A DNA stretch of 32,146 nt from Spirochaetaceae bacterium (GCA_029210985.1 JARGFR010000016.1:1-32146), one strand, 5' to 3'. Shown: positions 14,983-21,917, counted from the first letter of the stretch. Notes: generated from the letters alone by a model not told the origin. Translations and numbers: made by a program.

Positions 14983-15714
14983 ATGAAAGCCCTCTGCATC
15001 TACAACGATTTCCATCATCCCGGCGCGTTGGTAAAAAACGGGCTGGAGGAATTTGCCCCGCCTGAAATATCCATCGAGTTTACAGACGCCGAGGACGGCA
15101 TTCCCACCGACTTTCCAACGAACTGCGGCATATTGATCCTGAGTAAGGCCAACATGACCGCGTCGGATAAAGAGACTTCCTGGGTAACCAGAGACTGGGA
15201 GATACACATCCGGGATTTCGTTGAGAACGGAGGGATGCTGCTGGCCGTTCATTCAGGCATCGCCGGCTATGAAAAAGGCGGCATCATGGGCAATCTTCTC
15301 GGCGGAACATTCAAATGGCACCCGGAGATATGTGATGTATCGTATCGCGGTTCTATTAAAATAGGCCGGACCGGTATCGGGTCGGTCGATTTCACTTGCA
15401 GGGACGAGCACTATTTTGTCGATGTATTTAATAAGGATGCCGAGATATTTCTGACCTCGGAATCCCGGCACGGGAGACAGCCTGCAGGGTGGATCTGCAA
15501 TATAGAACGGGGAAGGGTCGTCGTTCTGACCCCCGGTCATACCTTGGAGGTCTGGAATCATCCCGTTTTCCGGAAAATGATCCTCCAAGCACTTCAGACG
15601 AAAAAAAAGGCAGCTCCGGCCGCCCTTAGTCCGCGTCAAAAAAACGCGACAGCGGAAAAACCCAACAATCCAAGCAGGAAGAGCAGCATGACGGACCGAA
15701 CGTCCGGGGCGTAA
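14983..15714 (+). CDS. ThuA-like domain protein
   Basis: MKALCIYNDFHHPG, FVENGGMLLAVHSGIAGYEKGG, GNLLGGTFKWHPE, PAGWICNIERGRVVVLTPGHTLEVWNHPVFRKMILQAL. The last ~40 aa look non-homologous and overlap mrpD antisense. Confidence 0.8.
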   Translation: MKALCIYNDFHHPGALVKNGLEEFAPPEISIEFTDAEDGIPTDFPTNCGILILSKANMTASDKETSWVTRDWEIHIRDFVENGGMLLAVHSGIAGYEKGGIMGNLLGGTFKWHPEICDVSYRGSIKIGRTGIGSVDFTCRDEHYFVDVFNKDAEIFLTSESRHGRQPAGWICNIERGRVVVLTPGHTLEVWNHPVFRKMILQALQTKKKAAPAALSPRQKNATAEKPNNPSRKSSMTDRTSGA

Positions 15715-17291
15715 CTCTTCACCACCGCCGCGGCTTTTTTACCAGGCTGAGAGACAACCAAAAAATACAGTCCGACGCCCAGCGTAAGAGTCAGAGCCGT
15801 TGACGCCAATTTCGGGACGGTGTAGAGAGCCGGAAGTACCGGCGTCGGACCGCTTCCGACGAGTTTGTGGAGTATACCGACATACGGGAAGGCAAAGAGA
15901 CCTGAAAGGATACACAGAAGGGCAAGAAATACCATGGAAATCGAGGTGAGCACACCCGGCCCGGAGATGGTGCCGCCTGCCTCGGAGGTTTTTCGCAGAG
16001 AGAACACCCGGCTGAGCTTGATGAAGCTGGCAATGGTGGCCACAGAGGTCGCCTTGAGCAAAAACGCCACCGCTGACGACCCGGCAGTGCTCTTGAACAC
16101 GAGGGTTTTGCTGGCATATCCGTTGAACGGCGGAATACCCGAGATGGAAAGAGCTCCCACCAGGAATACCAGACTCAGCAGCGGCGCCTTCCTTCCGACA
16201 GGCTTCATTCGATATAGGTTCCGTTCTCCCGACATCTGGACGGCCGTTCCGACGGACAGGAACAGGAGGCTCTTGAACATGGCATGATTCAGGGCATGGG
16301 AAAAAGAGGCCGACATGGAAAGACTCTCGGCAGCCGCAAAAGCGGCCAGCACATATCCCATTTGAGAGACAGAATGATAGGCCAGAAGACGCTTGGCATC
16401 GCTTTGGGCCAGGGCCAGTATGACGGCCGTCAGTGCGGTGACTCCCCCGATCCAGAGAAGCAGCCCATTCAGATAGATCACTTGAAAACGAATCAGTATC
16501 CGCACTAATGCAAATAGGGAGACTTTGATGAGAACCCCTGAGAGAAGCGCCGAAATCGGATGGGGCGCATAGGCATGAGCTTCGGGCAGCCAGGTATGGA
16601 AGGGAATGAAGGCGGTTCGGACGCCGATACCGACGCAGAGTGAGGCAATGGCCAGATGTATCGATGGGGATTCGCCCAGAGTGGGGTTCGAGCGAATGAC
16701 GGCGCTGATGCCGGAAATGGAGAGCGTTCCGAAGTCCCGGTAGATCAGGAACACTCCGATCAAATAGAAGAGAATGCCGATTGAACTTAAAAAAAGGTAT
16801 TTGATGCCGGCGACAAGACCGGCAGGGGTCTTTTCATAGGCAATGAGCACATAAGCGGTAATGGCGATGATTTCGAAGCTCACGAACATTGTAAAAAGGT
16901 CCCCGGTGAGGCAAACCGACAGCATACCGGCTTTCAGAAGCAGCAGGAAAAAGAAAAACGGCGGCCCATAGAGACGCCGGGAAAGGGCGGCGATGCCGAT
17001 GGGCAAGGAGATCACCACTATCAATAACGAGGAGACCCAGGAGAACCCATCCAGAACGAAGGAAATCCCGTAGGGTTCCGGCCATCCCCCAAGGAAGTAG
17101 GTCAGGACACCGCCGTCAAAAATCGTCGGACCCAGAAGTATCAGTATCACGCCGGTGAATGCCATCGAAGCCACGGCTGCGACACAGGTGAAATAGGCCA
17201 GGGTTTCGCTTTTCAGAGCCTTGCCGAACAGGGCGGATGCACCGCCGAAAAGAGGTATCACCACGAGCAGCGGGAGCATGGATTCAATCAT
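15636..17291 (-). CDS. mrpD: MrpD/MbhH-type antiporter subunit (proton-translocating NADH dehydrogenase N/M/L-like)
   Basis: Polytopic; FEIIAITAYVLIAYEKTPAGLVAGIKYLFLSSIGILFYLIG, HTWLPEAHAYAPHPISALLSGVLIKVSLFALVRI, YHSVSQMGYVLAAFA. Likely start at 17291 (MIESMLPLL). Confidence 0.9.
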   Translation of the reverse strand: MIESMLPLLVVIPLFGGASALFGKALKSETLAYFTCVAAVASMAFTGVILILLGPTIFDGGVLTYFLGGWPEPYGISFVLDGFSWVSSLLIVVISLPIGIAALSRRLYGPPFFFFLLLLKAGMLSVCLTGDLFTMFVSFEIIAITAYVLIAYEKTPAGLVAGIKYLFLSSIGILFYLIGVFLIYRDFGTLSISGISAVIRSNPTLGESPSIHLAIASLCVGIGVRTAFIPFHTWLPEAHAYAPHPISALLSGVLIKVSLFALVRILIRFQVIYLNGLLLWIGGVTALTAVILALAQSDAKRLLAYHSVSQMGYVLAAFAAAESLSMSASFSHALNHAMFKSLLFLSVGTAVQMSGERNLYRMKPVGRKAPLLSLVFLVGALSISGIPPFNGYASKTLVFKSTAGSSAVAFLLKATSVATIASFIKLSRVFSLRKTSEAGGTISGPGVLTSISMVFLALLCILSGLFAFPYVGILHKLVGSGPTPVLPALYTVPKLASTALTLTLGVGLYFLVVSQPGKKAAAVVKSYAPDVRSVMLLFLLGLLGFSAVAFF

Positions 17292-17622
17292 GGAGTTTCC
17301 ATACACTCTTTTCGATGACGCGGATATCCAGAGTCTTATGTACAAGATAGATCCGGTAGATCAACACCAGCGCCAAAGCCACGACGCAAATCCCCACGAC
17401 AATGGCCGTCAGCATCAAGGCCTGAGGCAGCGGATCCACCATAACTTCCTGAGTTCCCAGAATCGGTGCGGTGCTGCCGGATAGAGAACCGTGGTAAACG
17501 AACAGAAGAACAACGGCCGAGTTGCATATGGAGAGAGCCATAATTTTCTTTATAAGGTTGGCTTTCGTTGTCAGGCCCCACAGTCCCACCAGAAACAGCG
17601 CCCCGATCAGTAAATCCGTCAT
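17284..17622 (-). CDS. mrpC: MrpC/MbhG (NuoK-like) antiporter subunit
   Basis: 112 aa; GLWGLTTKANLIKKIMALSICNSAVVLLFVYHGSL...VDPLPQALMLTAIVVGICVVALALVLIYRIY. Confidence 0.9.
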   Translation of the reverse strand: MTDLLIGALFLVGLWGLTTKANLIKKIMALSICNSAVVLLFVYHGSLSGSTAPILGTQEVMVDPLPQALMLTAIVVGICVVALALVLIYRIYLVHKTLDIRVIEKSVWKLHD

Positions 17623-18038
17623 GTTGTTTCCCTGAAGAGATGGATGCAGATCAGGCTTATTCCGGCGCCGACTTTGATGCCGATGAGGAAATTGAGCATT
17701 GTGATGAAACTCGCCCTCGGCAAAACCGGCTCACGGGCCAGAACGGCGGGATTGCCTAGGAAGCCCACCCCGAAAATCATGCCGACAACACCGACGCATA
17801 AAAGCAGGAAGAACATCAGGAATTCAACCAAAGCCAAAGACTTGGCTGGAAAGAGTTCCTCCGCCGCCGCAACACCCTGACTCATGGAGAGCAGGATGAC
17901 TCCCGATGAAATCACGACTCCTCCCTGAAATCCGCCGCCGGGAGATAAACGGCCGTAGAATAAGAGATAGAAACCGAAGAGAAACATGAATGGAGCGAGT
18001 TTACGGGAAATCAAATCCAGTATTTCCGTCTTCTTCAC
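17619..18038 (-). CDS. mrpB: MrpB/MbhF-type antiporter subunit
   Basis: LAPFMFLFGFYLLFYGRLSPGGGFQGGVVISSGVILL. Confidence 0.9.
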   Translation of the reverse strand: MKKTEILDLISRKLAPFMFLFGFYLLFYGRLSPGGGFQGGVVISSGVILLSMSQGVAAAEELFPAKSLALVEFLMFFLLLCVGVVGMIFGVGFLGNPAVLAREPVLPRASFITMLNFLIGIKVGAGISLICIHLFRETT

Positions 18039-18304
18039 GATTCCCTCTCCACAAAAAACACCACCCCGGATACCGCCAGAAGAAGAACGAGTGTTTCACC
18101 CAGGGTGTCATAGGCGCGATAACCCAGGTAGATGGATGTCACCAGGTTCGTCGCTCCGGTTTCCCTCTCACCGTGAGAAACCAAATAGTCTCTGATCGCT
18201 GTTTTTTCCTCATGCTCGCCCTGGAGAGCCAGGAAGAGAAAGAGACCGACAAGAAGAATAATCAGGGTCTCGAGGATTCTGCTCAATACAGCCCGCCGCT
18301 TCAT
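18035..18304 (-). CDS. MbhE-like subunit (equivalent to part of the MrpA C-terminus)
   Basis: 89 aa; TNLVTSIYLGYRAYDTLGETLVLLLAVSGVVFF; operon position. Confidence 0.8.
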   Translation of the reverse strand: MKRRAVLSRILETLIILLVGLFLFLALQGEHEEKTAIRDYLVSHGERETGATNLVTSIYLGYRAYDTLGETLVLLLAVSGVVFFVERES

Positions 18305-18534
18305 GTATCGTCCCTCCTTTCGGTTTTCCGAACAATCCAGACAAAAACCACTGTTCCGACGCCGGTTCCCACAGCCGCTTCGGTAAGCGCGACATCCGGC
18401 GCATGGAGCAGAAAGAACACCAGAGTGCTCAGGAGGCTCACCACTCCCAGGAGAATCACCCCCGCCAGTAAGTTTCTCAGCTGCAGAGTGATGAACGACA
18501 CGATGACGAGTATCCCGACGAGAATTTCAATCAT
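18301..18534 (-). CDS. MbhD-like/DUF4040 subunit (equivalent to part of the MrpA C-terminus)
   Basis: 77 aa; RNLLAGVILLGVVSLLSTLVFFLLHAPDVALTEAAVGTGVGTVVFVWIVRKTER. Confidence 0.85.
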   Translation of the reverse strand: MIEILVGILVIVSFITLQLRNLLAGVILLGVVSLLSTLVFFLLHAPDVALTEAAVGTGVGTVVFVWIVRKTERRDDT

Positions 18535-18853
18535 CGTCCGATCCTGTGCTTTTCCTGTGATAGGTATGCCGCCATGGAATCATCTCCTTGTTCCAGGCAA
18601 AGCGGGCGATGATATGGGCCGAGATGGGATTGGTGATGAAAAAGAATATGCCGATTACCAGGAGCTTACCGGTAATGGGTCCCCATCCGGCGAAGAACAT
18701 ACACCCGATCAAAATGGAAAAAACGGCGGTGGTGCTGCATGTGGATGAGGCCTGCAGACGCGTATAGACGTCGGGAAATACCAGAACGCCGATATTGGCC
18801 ATGACGATGAACAGAGCGCCGATACCCATAAAAATGAAGCCTGCAATAATCAT
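18527..18853 (-). CDS. mrpG: MrpG/MbhC antiporter subunit
   Basis: FMGIGALFIVMANIGVLVFPDVYTRLQASSTCSTTAVFSILIG...NPISAHIIARFAW. Confidence 0.92.
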   Translation of the reverse strand: MIIAGFIFMGIGALFIVMANIGVLVFPDVYTRLQASSTCSTTAVFSILIGCMFFAGWGPITGKLLVIGIFFFITNPISAHIIARFAWNKEMIPWRHTYHRKSTGSDDD

Positions 18854-19116
18854 AGGTCCTCCCGCCGGGTCGAAAAATACCGGGTGATGGTCAGCAGCCC
18901 GATGAAGCCGAATATGTCATAGACCAGAGCCACATCGAGATAGATGGCTCGACCGGCCTGGACGGACAGCACGGCCAGAAGAGCCAGAACCTGGGCGGAC
19001 ACCATGCTGAATCCAATCAGTCTGTCGACGATGGACGGACCAATGACGATGCGTATGGCACTGACGCTCGATCCGGCAATGAGGAAATAGACCATGAGTT
19101 CCAGTGCTAAATCCAT
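18850..19116 (-). CDS. mrpF: MrpF/MbhB antiporter subunit
   Basis: IRIVIGPSIVDRLIGFSMVSAQVLALLAVLSVQAGRAIYLDVALVYDIFGFIGLLTITRYF. Confidence 0.92.
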   Translation of the reverse strand: MDLALELMVYFLIAGSSVSAIRIVIGPSIVDRLIGFSMVSAQVLALLAVLSVQAGRAIYLDVALVYDIFGFIGLLTITRYFSTRREDL

Positions 19117-19619
19117 ACGCGCTTGAGGAGTTCCTCGTAGGCGCCCTTGATAAGGTTGCCCGCATATCGGGAATGGGTCGTTTTAGCTTCCAGCCAATGG
19201 ACAATAAGATGATCGTCGTCCAGGAGCACGGTCACCGTTCCGGGCGTCAGGGTAATCGAGTGAGTCAGCGCCACCCTGGCGATGTCGGACCTGAGGCGAG
19301 TTCGAAAATGGACGATTCCCGGTTTTATCCGGCCCCTGATGATGTGCCAAAGAACCTGGAAGCTTGCCACATACATATTGAATATCAGGACGGCCAGGAA
19401 CACGATAAAGACATGCAGTCTGGGGAGATGTGACCGTCGGCCCGCTTCTTCTTCATCAATGAAAATCGAGTATGTGATGTATGACAACAGAAGGCTTGCG
19501 GCCAAGCCGGTAATGAGGGATCCCGGATCAACCGACCAGGTGAACAGAATCCATCCGCCCATCAGGGAGACGGTGGTCATCAGAAACCTGACGATGGCCC
19601 ATTTGGTCCGGGGGTTCAT
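19107..19619 (-). CDS. mrpE: MrpE/MbhA antiporter subunit
   Basis: VASFQVLWHIIRGRIKPGIVHFRTRLRSDIARVALTHSITLTPGTVTVLLDDDHLIVHWLEAKT. Confidence 0.92.
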   Translation of the reverse strand: MNPRTKWAIVRFLMTTVSLMGGWILFTWSVDPGSLITGLAASLLLSYITYSIFIDEEEAGRRSHLPRLHVFIVFLAVLIFNMYVASFQVLWHIIRGRIKPGIVHFRTRLRSDIARVALTHSITLTPGTVTVLLDDDHLIVHWLEAKTTHSRYAGNLIKGAYEELLKRVWI

Positions 19620-20086
19620 GGGGAGTTCCGATCCTTTTCTTCGATGGCGGCAATCACTTCCTCCGGTGTCAGTGCATCATGAAGGGCACGGCAGAACTTA
19701 TCATCGTGAAGATAACGGGCGATTCTGCTGAGTACTTTCAAGTGTTCTACGTGAGACCCCGAAGGTCCCACCAGGAGAAAGAAGAGCGTGACAGGACGAT
19801 TGTCAACCGAATCGAAGCGAGCGCCGTCTCTCTTGAGGCCGAACGCCAAAAGAGTCTTGTCGACGGTGTCGGACATGGCATGAGGGATGGCGATTCCGCT
19901 TCCGATCCCCGTCGATGCCACCTTCTCCCGCTCGATGACATCAGAAGTCAGCTTCTTCAGGTCCGAGACGCACCCTCCCCGGCCTAGAACCTTCACCAGA
20001 GCTTCGATGATATCCGGTTTTCGTTTCCCACCTAATTCCAGATCGATGCACGATGGGTCGAGCATATCGCTGAGCGTCGAAGTCAT
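19616..20086 (-). CDS. PTS EIIA-type (fructose/Ntr class) protein
   Basis: GIGSGIAIPHAMSDTV (phospho-His motif), NRPVTLFFLLVGPSGSHVEHLKVLSRIARYLHDDKF. Confidence 0.92.
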   Translation of the reverse strand: MTSTLSDMLDPSCIDLELGGKRKPDIIEALVKVLGRGGCVSDLKKLTSDVIEREKVASTGIGSGIAIPHAMSDTVDKTLLAFGLKRDGARFDSVDNRPVTLFFLLVGPSGSHVEHLKVLSRIARYLHDDKFCRALHDALTPEEVIAAIEEKDRNSP

Positions 20087-20425
20087 TTAGAGATCCTCCA
20101 CCAGGCCGACGGCCCAGTCAACGGGAAGTGTAAACAGGATACCGGTTCCCGGATCGGTGAATTTTCCACAGATATCCTCAAGGACGGATTGCAGCCGAGG
20201 AATTACCGACTCGTCCCTGACAACTGAGAATATGGTCTTGTTGTAAGGTTTGTTACCTTTCATAAACTCTCTGAACTCAGCGAACAGAGGTACTTCATAG
20301 GTGAGAAACCGACCCATTCCTTCGGAATCCAGGATGGTTCCTCCGGATATGCCCAACTCCGCAAAAACTTGAAGGACCTGATCGAGGAGTTCTTCCTTGT
20401 TTAGGACGAAGACGATGCATTTCAT
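20087..20425 (-). CDS. PII-like (GlnB-fold) small regulatory protein
   Basis: 112 aa; MKCIVFVLNKEELLDQVLQVFAELGISGGTILDSEGMGRFLTYE...TDPGTGILFTLPVDWAVGL is a PII-like ferredoxin-fold pattern. Directly abuts the EIIA gene. Confidence 0.75.
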   Translation of the reverse strand: MKCIVFVLNKEELLDQVLQVFAELGISGGTILDSEGMGRFLTYEVPLFAEFREFMKGNKPYNKTIFSVVRDESVIPRLQSVLEDICGKFTDPGTGILFTLPVDWAVGLVEDL

Positions 20426-20429
20426 AATG

Positions 20430-20462
20430 TATACTCTAGTATAAACAGCCGGGTTCCTTCCT
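20430..20462 (-). promoter_or_regulatory. Putative leftward promoter for the PII-like/EIIA/mrp operon, overlapping an inverted repeat
   Basis: Inverted repeat TATACT-CT-AGTATA (20430-20443). The minus strand reads TATACT as a -10 with a weak GACA-containing -35 about 18 bp upstream; the start codon lies only 5 nt from the repeat. Confidence 0.4.
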
Positions 20463-20472
20463 GTCGGCCGAC

Positions 20473-21120
20473 CTATTCCACTTTTTTAAAATGAAACTTA
20501 GTTTCTTCTCCCCGAATAAGTCGGCGAATGTTCTTCCGGTGAAGCCATGTTATACCCAGAGGTATCAGACAGAAAAAGATCAGAAGCGTCACCGAAAGAG
20601 CCGAGCCGCGGATCCAAGTAACGCCAAGATAGACGAAGGGGAGTATCCAAGCGGCGACGAGGGATGCCAGGAAGACATAGGAACTGACCGCCAAGACCGC
20701 CGCAAACACAGCCAGGCAGAACGGTGCCGCGATGGGATAAAGCGCAGTGATTCCGCCGGCGGATGAAGCGACGCCTTTACCGCCCCGGAATCCGGCCCAA
20801 AGGGGATAGGCATGGCCGATCACCACAGCTGCCAATACACCGATTTTCAGAGCATCCGCTTCACCTGCCGAGAGAGCCGCGACCGGAGTCAGGAAGACCG
20901 GTAGAAATCCCTTCATCAGATCCAGAACAAGAACGGCCGCGGCGGCTTTCCAACCCAGCACGCGATAGACATTGGTGGCGCCGGCGTTCCCGCTCCCCTT
21001 CTCCCGGATATCGATGCCGGCAAATATCCGGCCGAAAATGAGAGCAAAGGGAAGGGATCCGACCAGGTAGGCCGCAAGAAGGATAATCGGCAGGGAAAGG
21101 CCGATGGGCAGACTCATCAT
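20473..21120 (-). CDS. plsY: Acyl-phosphate:glycerol-3-phosphate acyltransferase PlsY
   Basis: [66 protein letters not shown]. Confidence 0.96.
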
Positions 21121-21917
21121 TCCCTTCCGCTCCGGCGCCTGGGCAGAGGAATCAGAAGACTGGTGGAGTTCTTATAGGCTTGGTATTCGGGATTATCGCC
21201 ATACTTCTCATCACCGCTTTTTTCCAGGAGAGGTATGCCGCTGACAAAAAGCAGCAGCGTTGTGATGGAAATCGGACCGAAAACCGTCAGCCACTGCCAT
21301 CCGGTCAATCCCGGAAGGATCACCAGAAAGAGCCCCCACCATAACAATATCTCACCGAAATAGTTGGGGTGGCGGGAGTAGCGCCACAGGCCGCTTTCTA
21401 TCCACCGATTTCGGTTTTCAGGTTTCCGCTTGAATCGGAATTTCTGAGCGTCGCCGAAGGTCTCAATCATCAGACCGACAAGGAAGAGAAGGAAGCCGAC
21501 TGCTGCCGGCCCGGTTGAGAAGTCATAAACCCGCCCGGTCAGTGCCAGAGTCATCGGCAGCATAATCGCCCAGACGCCGATGGTCTGAAGAAGCCAGAAT
21601 TGGAGAAAGACGAGGGGTTTATCCCTCTTATCGTCAAAGCGATCATCTTTACCGATGACGCTGATCCGATAGAGAAGATAGACCCCCAGGCGGAAAGCCC
21701 ACAGACTCACCGCCAGGGCAATAAGAAGACGGACTAAAGAAATCGGCCGGTCTCCGGTGAGCAGCAGTACCCAGGTGAGGATCAGGAAACTCAGACTGTA
21801 GGAGAAGTCGGTGACCTTGTCGGTTTTAAACATCGCCGCGAAGAGAAAAAAGGTCATATTCACGATGAAACTGAGAACCAGAGAAACCATAATGGGGTAA
21901 GCTTGAATTATTTCCAT
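21117..21917 (-). CDS. DUF1295/steroid 5-alpha-reductase-like membrane protein
   Basis: 266 aa; [58 protein letters not shown]. Confidence 0.9.

Follow-up and report, generated by a model that had tools for sequence, protein, structure and literature searches.

Why should an operon for a multisubunit cation/proton antiporter begin with genes for two regulatory proteins? The question is raised by a 32,146-nucleotide stretch of a Spirochaetaceae bacterium genome (GCA_029210985.1, JARGFR010000016.1:1-32146; hereafter the window), in which ten packed minus-strand genes (20425-15636) encode a PII-like protein, an EIIA of the phosphotransferase system (PTS) and then eight Mrp/Mbh-type antiporter subunits in the order MrpE, MrpF, MrpG, MbhD, MbhE, MrpB, MrpC and MrpD. 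The PII and EIIA genes are separated by 0 bp and every later junction is a 4-10 bp overlap, Pfam and TIGRFAM matches placing all ten genes where an earlier note on this DNA had read them. We consider it likely that the PII-like protein works together with EIIA as a regulatory pair dedicated to cation/proton antiporters, in this case a Mrp/Mbh-type complex with one MrpD-like subunit. Their functional association with cation/proton antiport is strongly supported, because the linkage is kept in several phyla and extends to another antiporter superfamily, and because many genomes encode the two regulators as a fusion. The features of the unit are the following.

20087-20425, minus strand: PII-like protein, 112 amino acids, first gene of the unit; PF00543 over its full length, 23.8 bits, under the curated (gathering) cut-off of 25
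19616-20086, minus strand: PTS EIIA (EIIA_2 family), 156 amino acids, with the motif GIAIPHAM; PF00359, 118 bits against a cut-off of 27
19107-19619, minus strand: MrpE/MnhE; PF01899, 117 bits
18850-19116, minus strand: MrpF; PF04066, 47 bits
18527-18853, minus strand: MrpG/MnhG; PF03334, 83 bits, and TIGR01300 above cut-off
18301-18534, minus strand: MbhD (DUF4040); PF13244, 74 bits
18035-18304, minus strand: MbhE; PF20501, 30.5 bits, above cut-off
17619-18038, minus strand: MnhB; PF04039, 82 bits
17284-17622, minus strand: MnhC/NuoK-like; PF00420, 80 bits
15636-17291, minus strand: MrpD/NuoL-M-N-like antiporter subunit, the sole one in the unit; PF00361, 201 bits
15606-15627, minus strand: terminator-like stem-loop and T run directly 3' of mrpD; consensus match only
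20438-20467, minus strand: weak promoter-like site 5' of the PII gene; 9 of 12 matches, such sites being no commoner in the region than by chance

Scanned with the PII-like protein, 85,462 species genomes yielded 80 related loci, by title in Spirochaetota, Candidatus Aerophobetes, Candidatus Fermentibacteria, UASB270, Chitinispirillum and a few others, those nearest to the window being mostly in spirochaete genomes, and nearly all have the order PII-EIIA-E-F-G-MbhD-(MbhE)-B-C-D. Downstream of PII, mrpE is present in 77 of the 80, the exceptions (L049, L080 and L086) lying at or near a contig end, and the gene linkage in the window is therefore not chance. A separate EIIA gene stands beside PII in 76; the remaining loci are L016, which has no EIIA, L035, in which EIIA is at the operon end, L049, which ends inside PII, and L024, where the two are fused in frame, PII first, in a 264-residue protein with both domains matched in Pfam. 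The earlier note had made its proposal depend on conservation of the linkage in related genomes, and in this neighbourhood survey the order is kept almost throughout. One locus (L073), on a contig titled Crenarchaeota archaeon, has a spirochaete-like PII-EIIA-mrp operon and is probably mis-binned.

The same regulators accompany a second antiporter class, the cation/proton antiporters of family PF00999 (CPA). In the window's own genome a family-profile search found a paralogous PII domain fused behind EIIA (288 residues) directly after a PF00999 cation/proton exchanger (L087), and when 394 genomes of this phylum and four additional groups (17, 168, 42 and 284 genomes) were searched with the PII family profile, PII next to CPA turned up repeatedly, mostly as an EIIA-PII fusion of 270-290 residues. 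The arrangement may be CPA then fusion, fusion then CPA, EIIA-CPA-PII as three separate genes (L142, L145 and L146) or PII-CPA without EIIA; the L024 fusion has the opposite order to these EIIA-PII proteins, and at L195 the EIIA and PII genes are placed between MbhD and MrpB of another Mrp operon. Of the 194 distinct PII domains, 182 had enough flanking sequence for a tally of neighbours, and an antiporter adjoins 162 of these (95 Mrp, 67 CPA). The profiles used to call neighbours were derived from the loci themselves; Pfam upheld 17 of the 18 CPA proteins examined with it, the protein called CPA at L269:3994-5187 having no Pfam match. In the PII tree neither a single Mrp grouping (p-AU 0.55 with all Mrp rows held together) nor a single grouping of all EIIA-PII fusions (p-AU 0.49) was rejected, so that the tree gives no count of origins or partner switches.

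The CPA partners have at most 23 residues after the transport-domain profile match (60 cases), and RCK, TrkA and Usp domains were not found on them by Pfam. Because these partners are without a cytosolic regulatory domain, the EIIA-PII pair probably stands in for one, as judged from sequence, and the simplest reading would be that EIIA and PII are a detachable regulatory subunit for such antiporters. Adjoining one separate CPA and EIIA-PII fusion pair, L132:2172-4283 (minus strand) encodes a 704-residue protein with a PF00999 antiporter domain and an EIIA domain in one chain.

That the two regulators are fused, and lie directly beside antiporters of two unrelated classes, is more easily reconciled with a complex than with the alternative in which the pair acts on expression or on other targets, being co-transcribed with the antiporter since both belong to the same stress response, and regulates transcription or metabolism rather than the transporter protein. 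EIIAs with an N-terminal helix-turn-helix (L201:3479-4186, minus; L203:3868-4575, plus; L143:4519-5241, plus; L124:2820-3338, plus) do adjoin EIIA-PII/CPA or PII-EIIA genes, with HTH_17 matched in Pfam for L201 and L203, and may represent a transcriptional PTS output; L201 and L203 indicate that transcriptional PTS inputs exist near the cassette, and EIIA+PII pairs also occur alone. Against this, Pfam finds no DNA-binding domain in the window EIIA or PII-like protein, and in the precedents for PII and EIIANtr it is the transporter protein itself that is acted upon (PMC11808508, PMC10710835). We regard control of expression as unlikely.

What, then, could each member of the pair contribute? The EIIA scores 81.7 bits against TIGR01419 (EIIANtr/PtsN), under the equivalog cut-off of 138.7, and PtsN/EIIANtr are its nearest solved relatives. 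Its phospho-acceptor His69 lies in an intact IPHA motif, as first noticed, with a second histidine at position 115, and these are conserved in 78 of 79 and 77 of 77 orthologues, respectively. EIIA is much more variable in sequence than PII, and the phospho-acceptor is conserved nonetheless, in 168 of 169 distinct EIIAs including the very divergent protein of L195; the sole exception, L054:2732-3184 (plus strand), has Gln in its place. The window's genome (G000) contains three EI-type matches and one HPr and is among 16 tested genomes of which all have EI and 14 have HPr above cut-off, the other two being draft Aerophobetes. The conserved histidine, with EI and HPr in the same genome, thus supports a phosphotransfer input, by which EIIA would carry the phosphorylation state of the PTS relay (PEP-EI-HPr) and so report carbon and energy supply.

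The PII-like protein would sense a second signal. Its AF2 model (pLDDT 82.7) has at least 50 listed PDB fold matches, all PII or PII-like with E-values from 2e-6 to 3e-5, the best listed having E 2.1e-6 and a TM score of about 0.6, which places the protein in the PII (ferredoxin-like) fold and substantiates its description as a small GlnB-fold protein. Mrp-linked members share a near-invariant stretch, LDSEGMGRFLTYEVPLFAxFxxFMKGNKPYNKTI, of which residues 41-48 form a low-confidence loop in the model that is presumably mobile; the stretch corresponds to the T-loop, through which known PII proteins touch their partners, GlnK-AmtB being an example (PMC10710835). In canonical PII, Gln39 of the T-loop serves Mg-ATP/2-oxoglutarate binding, and a C-terminal Arg serves phosphate binding. 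The B-loop GxGKIF, with its phosphate-binding Lys, is found in none of the 182 family members (the window protein has GTGILF), the Gln39 position is Phe40 in the window family (Phe in 79 of 81) and the C-terminal Arg position is an invariant Gly107. With these residues replaced, canonical ATP/2-oxoglutarate binding is unlikely, and adenine nucleotides might still be bound in another mode. Phosphotransfer from EIIA to the PII-like protein was also considered and is unlikely, as none of the invariant or near-invariant positions of PII is a His. The dual-input control of the antiporter put forward in the earlier note is therefore supported in its association with antiport, by conserved linkage and fusions, and in its phosphotransfer input, while the proposed nucleotide/metabolite input finds no support at residue level.

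In the mechanism we favour, PII and EIIA would dock together on the antiporter's cytosolic face to switch its activity, in the way that EIIANtr acts on YcgO and GlnK and SbtB on AmtB and SbtA; elsewhere the same pair, usually fused as EIIA-PII, would serve single-chain CPA antiporters without a cytosolic regulatory domain. Here we infer physical binding, direct gating, the direction of the effect and the nature of the PII ligand. The opposite direction, in which antiporter or ion state would serve as input and the pair would report it to the PTS and metabolism, is compatible with the gene order, which does not distinguish direction, and EIIANtr has several targets in enterobacteria. The CPA partners without a regulatory domain suggest, however, that the antiporter is the regulated side, and known EIIA- and PII-transporter contacts run from regulator to transporter (PMC11808508, PMC10710835), making this reversal very improbable.

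Several observations weigh against a dedicated EIIA and PII pair for antiporters. Most Mrp-bearing relatives are without the cassette: 34 of 149 sampled genomes have MnhE, in 2 of them linked to this PII, and since most Mrp operons of the phylum are without it the cassette is a marker of one Mrp lineage. Nor is EIIA indispensable, because some PII-antiporter operons have none, namely the Aerophobetes Mrp operons L016, L189 and L191, which keep the PII-like gene, and the CPA loci L137, L138, L184, L185, L187 and L188. The antiporter tie itself holds for most of the PII family, not all, 20 of the 182 domains having no abutting antiporter. Ten of these are solo PII proteins of a distant branch in another phylum, with neither EIIA nor antiporter (L264, L266, L268, L270, L271, L273-L275, L277 and L278), and four are solo EIIA+PII pairs (L088 and L091-L093), the L088 genome having its Mrp operon, of another type and without PII, on a different contig (L099); the remaining six are the DUF1538-linked type (L147 and L148), two HAD-linked fusions (L254 and L257), a degenerate CPA/EIIA locus (L135) and a pair with a CPA gene in convergent orientation (L267). 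A fifth EIIA+PII pair, that of L124, likewise has no antiporter beside it. Finally, neither Mrp nor CPA antiporters are, to our knowledge, trimers. The PII-gated transporters of PMC10710835 are all trimeric.

Some further observations concern these exceptional loci. Loss of HPr was considered as the cause of the missing EIIA and rejected, as HPr is present in two of the three genomes whose Mrp operons lack EIIA, and several EIIA-bearing draft genomes have no detected HPr. A second mrpE of the window's genome lies at the edge of a 6.4-kb contig (L100, G000:C109) on which no PII gene was found. In the distant PII branch (L264-L266, L268, L270-L275, L277 and L278), which stands alone, several members adjoin Ser/Thr kinase-like genes, and in L265 and L268 the PII is at the end of an open frame of about 505 residues. 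At L257:3935-5605 (plus) and L254:5384-6957 (minus), EIIA-PII is fused with a HAD-type hydrolase or encoded immediately downstream of it, with no antiporter near. A tandem PII-like protein lies beside a DUF1538 membrane protein at L147:6245-8367 and L148:6286-8399 (both minus), weak matches that were set aside as a separate, DUF1538-linked tandem PII type.

The nature of the antiporter module bears on a further alternative. Subunits B, C, D, E, F and G of Mrp are all found in the unit by Pfam, no MrpA with an N-terminal antiporter domain is present in it, and it has one PF00361 protein; with this single MrpD/NuoL-M-N-like subunit and no MrpA, the unit resembles a Mbh-type module more closely than a textbook Mrp operon. 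Rather than a free antiporter, the module might be the ion-pumping portion of a redox complex that has its catalytic part encoded at another locus, in which case PII and EIIA would tune energy conservation. The separate MbhD and MbhE genes and the absence of a second, MrpA-type antiporter subunit are consistent with this, as is the best score of the MrpD-like protein, to a 'NADH dehydrogenase subunit N' model, at a value far under that model's cut-off. However, plain CPA antiporters are served by the same regulators, and no hydrogenase or other catalytic gene is in the window operon, the rest of the genome not having been searched for one. We hold a redox complex to be improbable, slightly more so than control of expression.

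The terminator-like stem after mrpD and the weak promoter-like site before the PII gene suggest that the transcription unit runs from PII to mrpD, for which ATG 17291 is a more probable start than TTG 17345. Beyond the hairpin lies a convergent ThuA-like gene (14983-15714, plus strand). Upstream, on the same strand as the unit, 20473-21917 (minus) holds plsY, 47 bp from the PII gene, and a DUF1295 gene; neither was detected next to orthologues of the operon.

Little is understood of how Mrp antiporters are regulated, and transport control by PII and by EIIA has so far been studied apart. If our reading is right, a cassette common to two unrelated antiporter superfamilies links carbon and energy state to Na+, K+ and pH balance, the hitherto unassigned PII-like family gains a testable function, and the pattern stated in PMC10710835, of PII gating confined to trimeric transporters, is broken. 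The PII+EIIA+antiporter cassette, and its use on Mrp, were not found in the open-licence literature searched, and the putative control device for cell ion balance that the two antiporter classes would share is apparently undescribed. We see roughly even chances for a broader proposition, that EIIA and this PII-like family are a general, exchangeable two-input antiporter subunit in several phyla, replacing RCK-type domains of CPA and attaching to Mrp, with its own T-loop (VPLFA..F), a non-canonically bound ligand, and action on non-trimeric transporters.

Comparison with known systems shows how the cassette both follows and departs from precedent. With Mrp (CPA3) and Mbh modules the window unit has subunits E, F, G, B, C and D in common, MbhD and MbhE being split as in the Mbh type, but it lacks the MrpA N-terminal antiporter subunit and the hydrogenase part, and regulatory genes lead the operon. 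The antiporter with fused EIIA at L132 likewise ties EIIA to PF00999, but within the antiporter chain and with no PII domain. In its unphosphorylated state, E. coli PtsN attaches to the cytosolic domain of YcgO, a CPA1 antiporter, and inhibits its K+/H+ exchange; phosphorylation weakens the contact (PMC11808508). Control of a cation/proton antiporter by the phosphorylation state of an EIIA from the same Pfam family, as proposed for the window EIIA, thus has a precedent. YcgO, however, binds PtsN through its own C-terminal RCK and CorC-like domains, of which the CPA partners here have none, and that system involves no described PII-like partner and no Mrp complex. PII proteins, in turn, gate (lock) AmtB and SbtA (PMC10710835), which belong to other transporter families and are both trimeric; compared with GlnK and SbtB, the window PII family is without the canonical ATP residues, differs in its T-loop motif and is nearly always accompanied by EIIA. 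GlnK-AmtB and SbtB-SbtA nevertheless also consist of a small PII-fold protein working on a transporter, and the linkage of glnK to amtB parallels that of PII to the antiporter genes described here.

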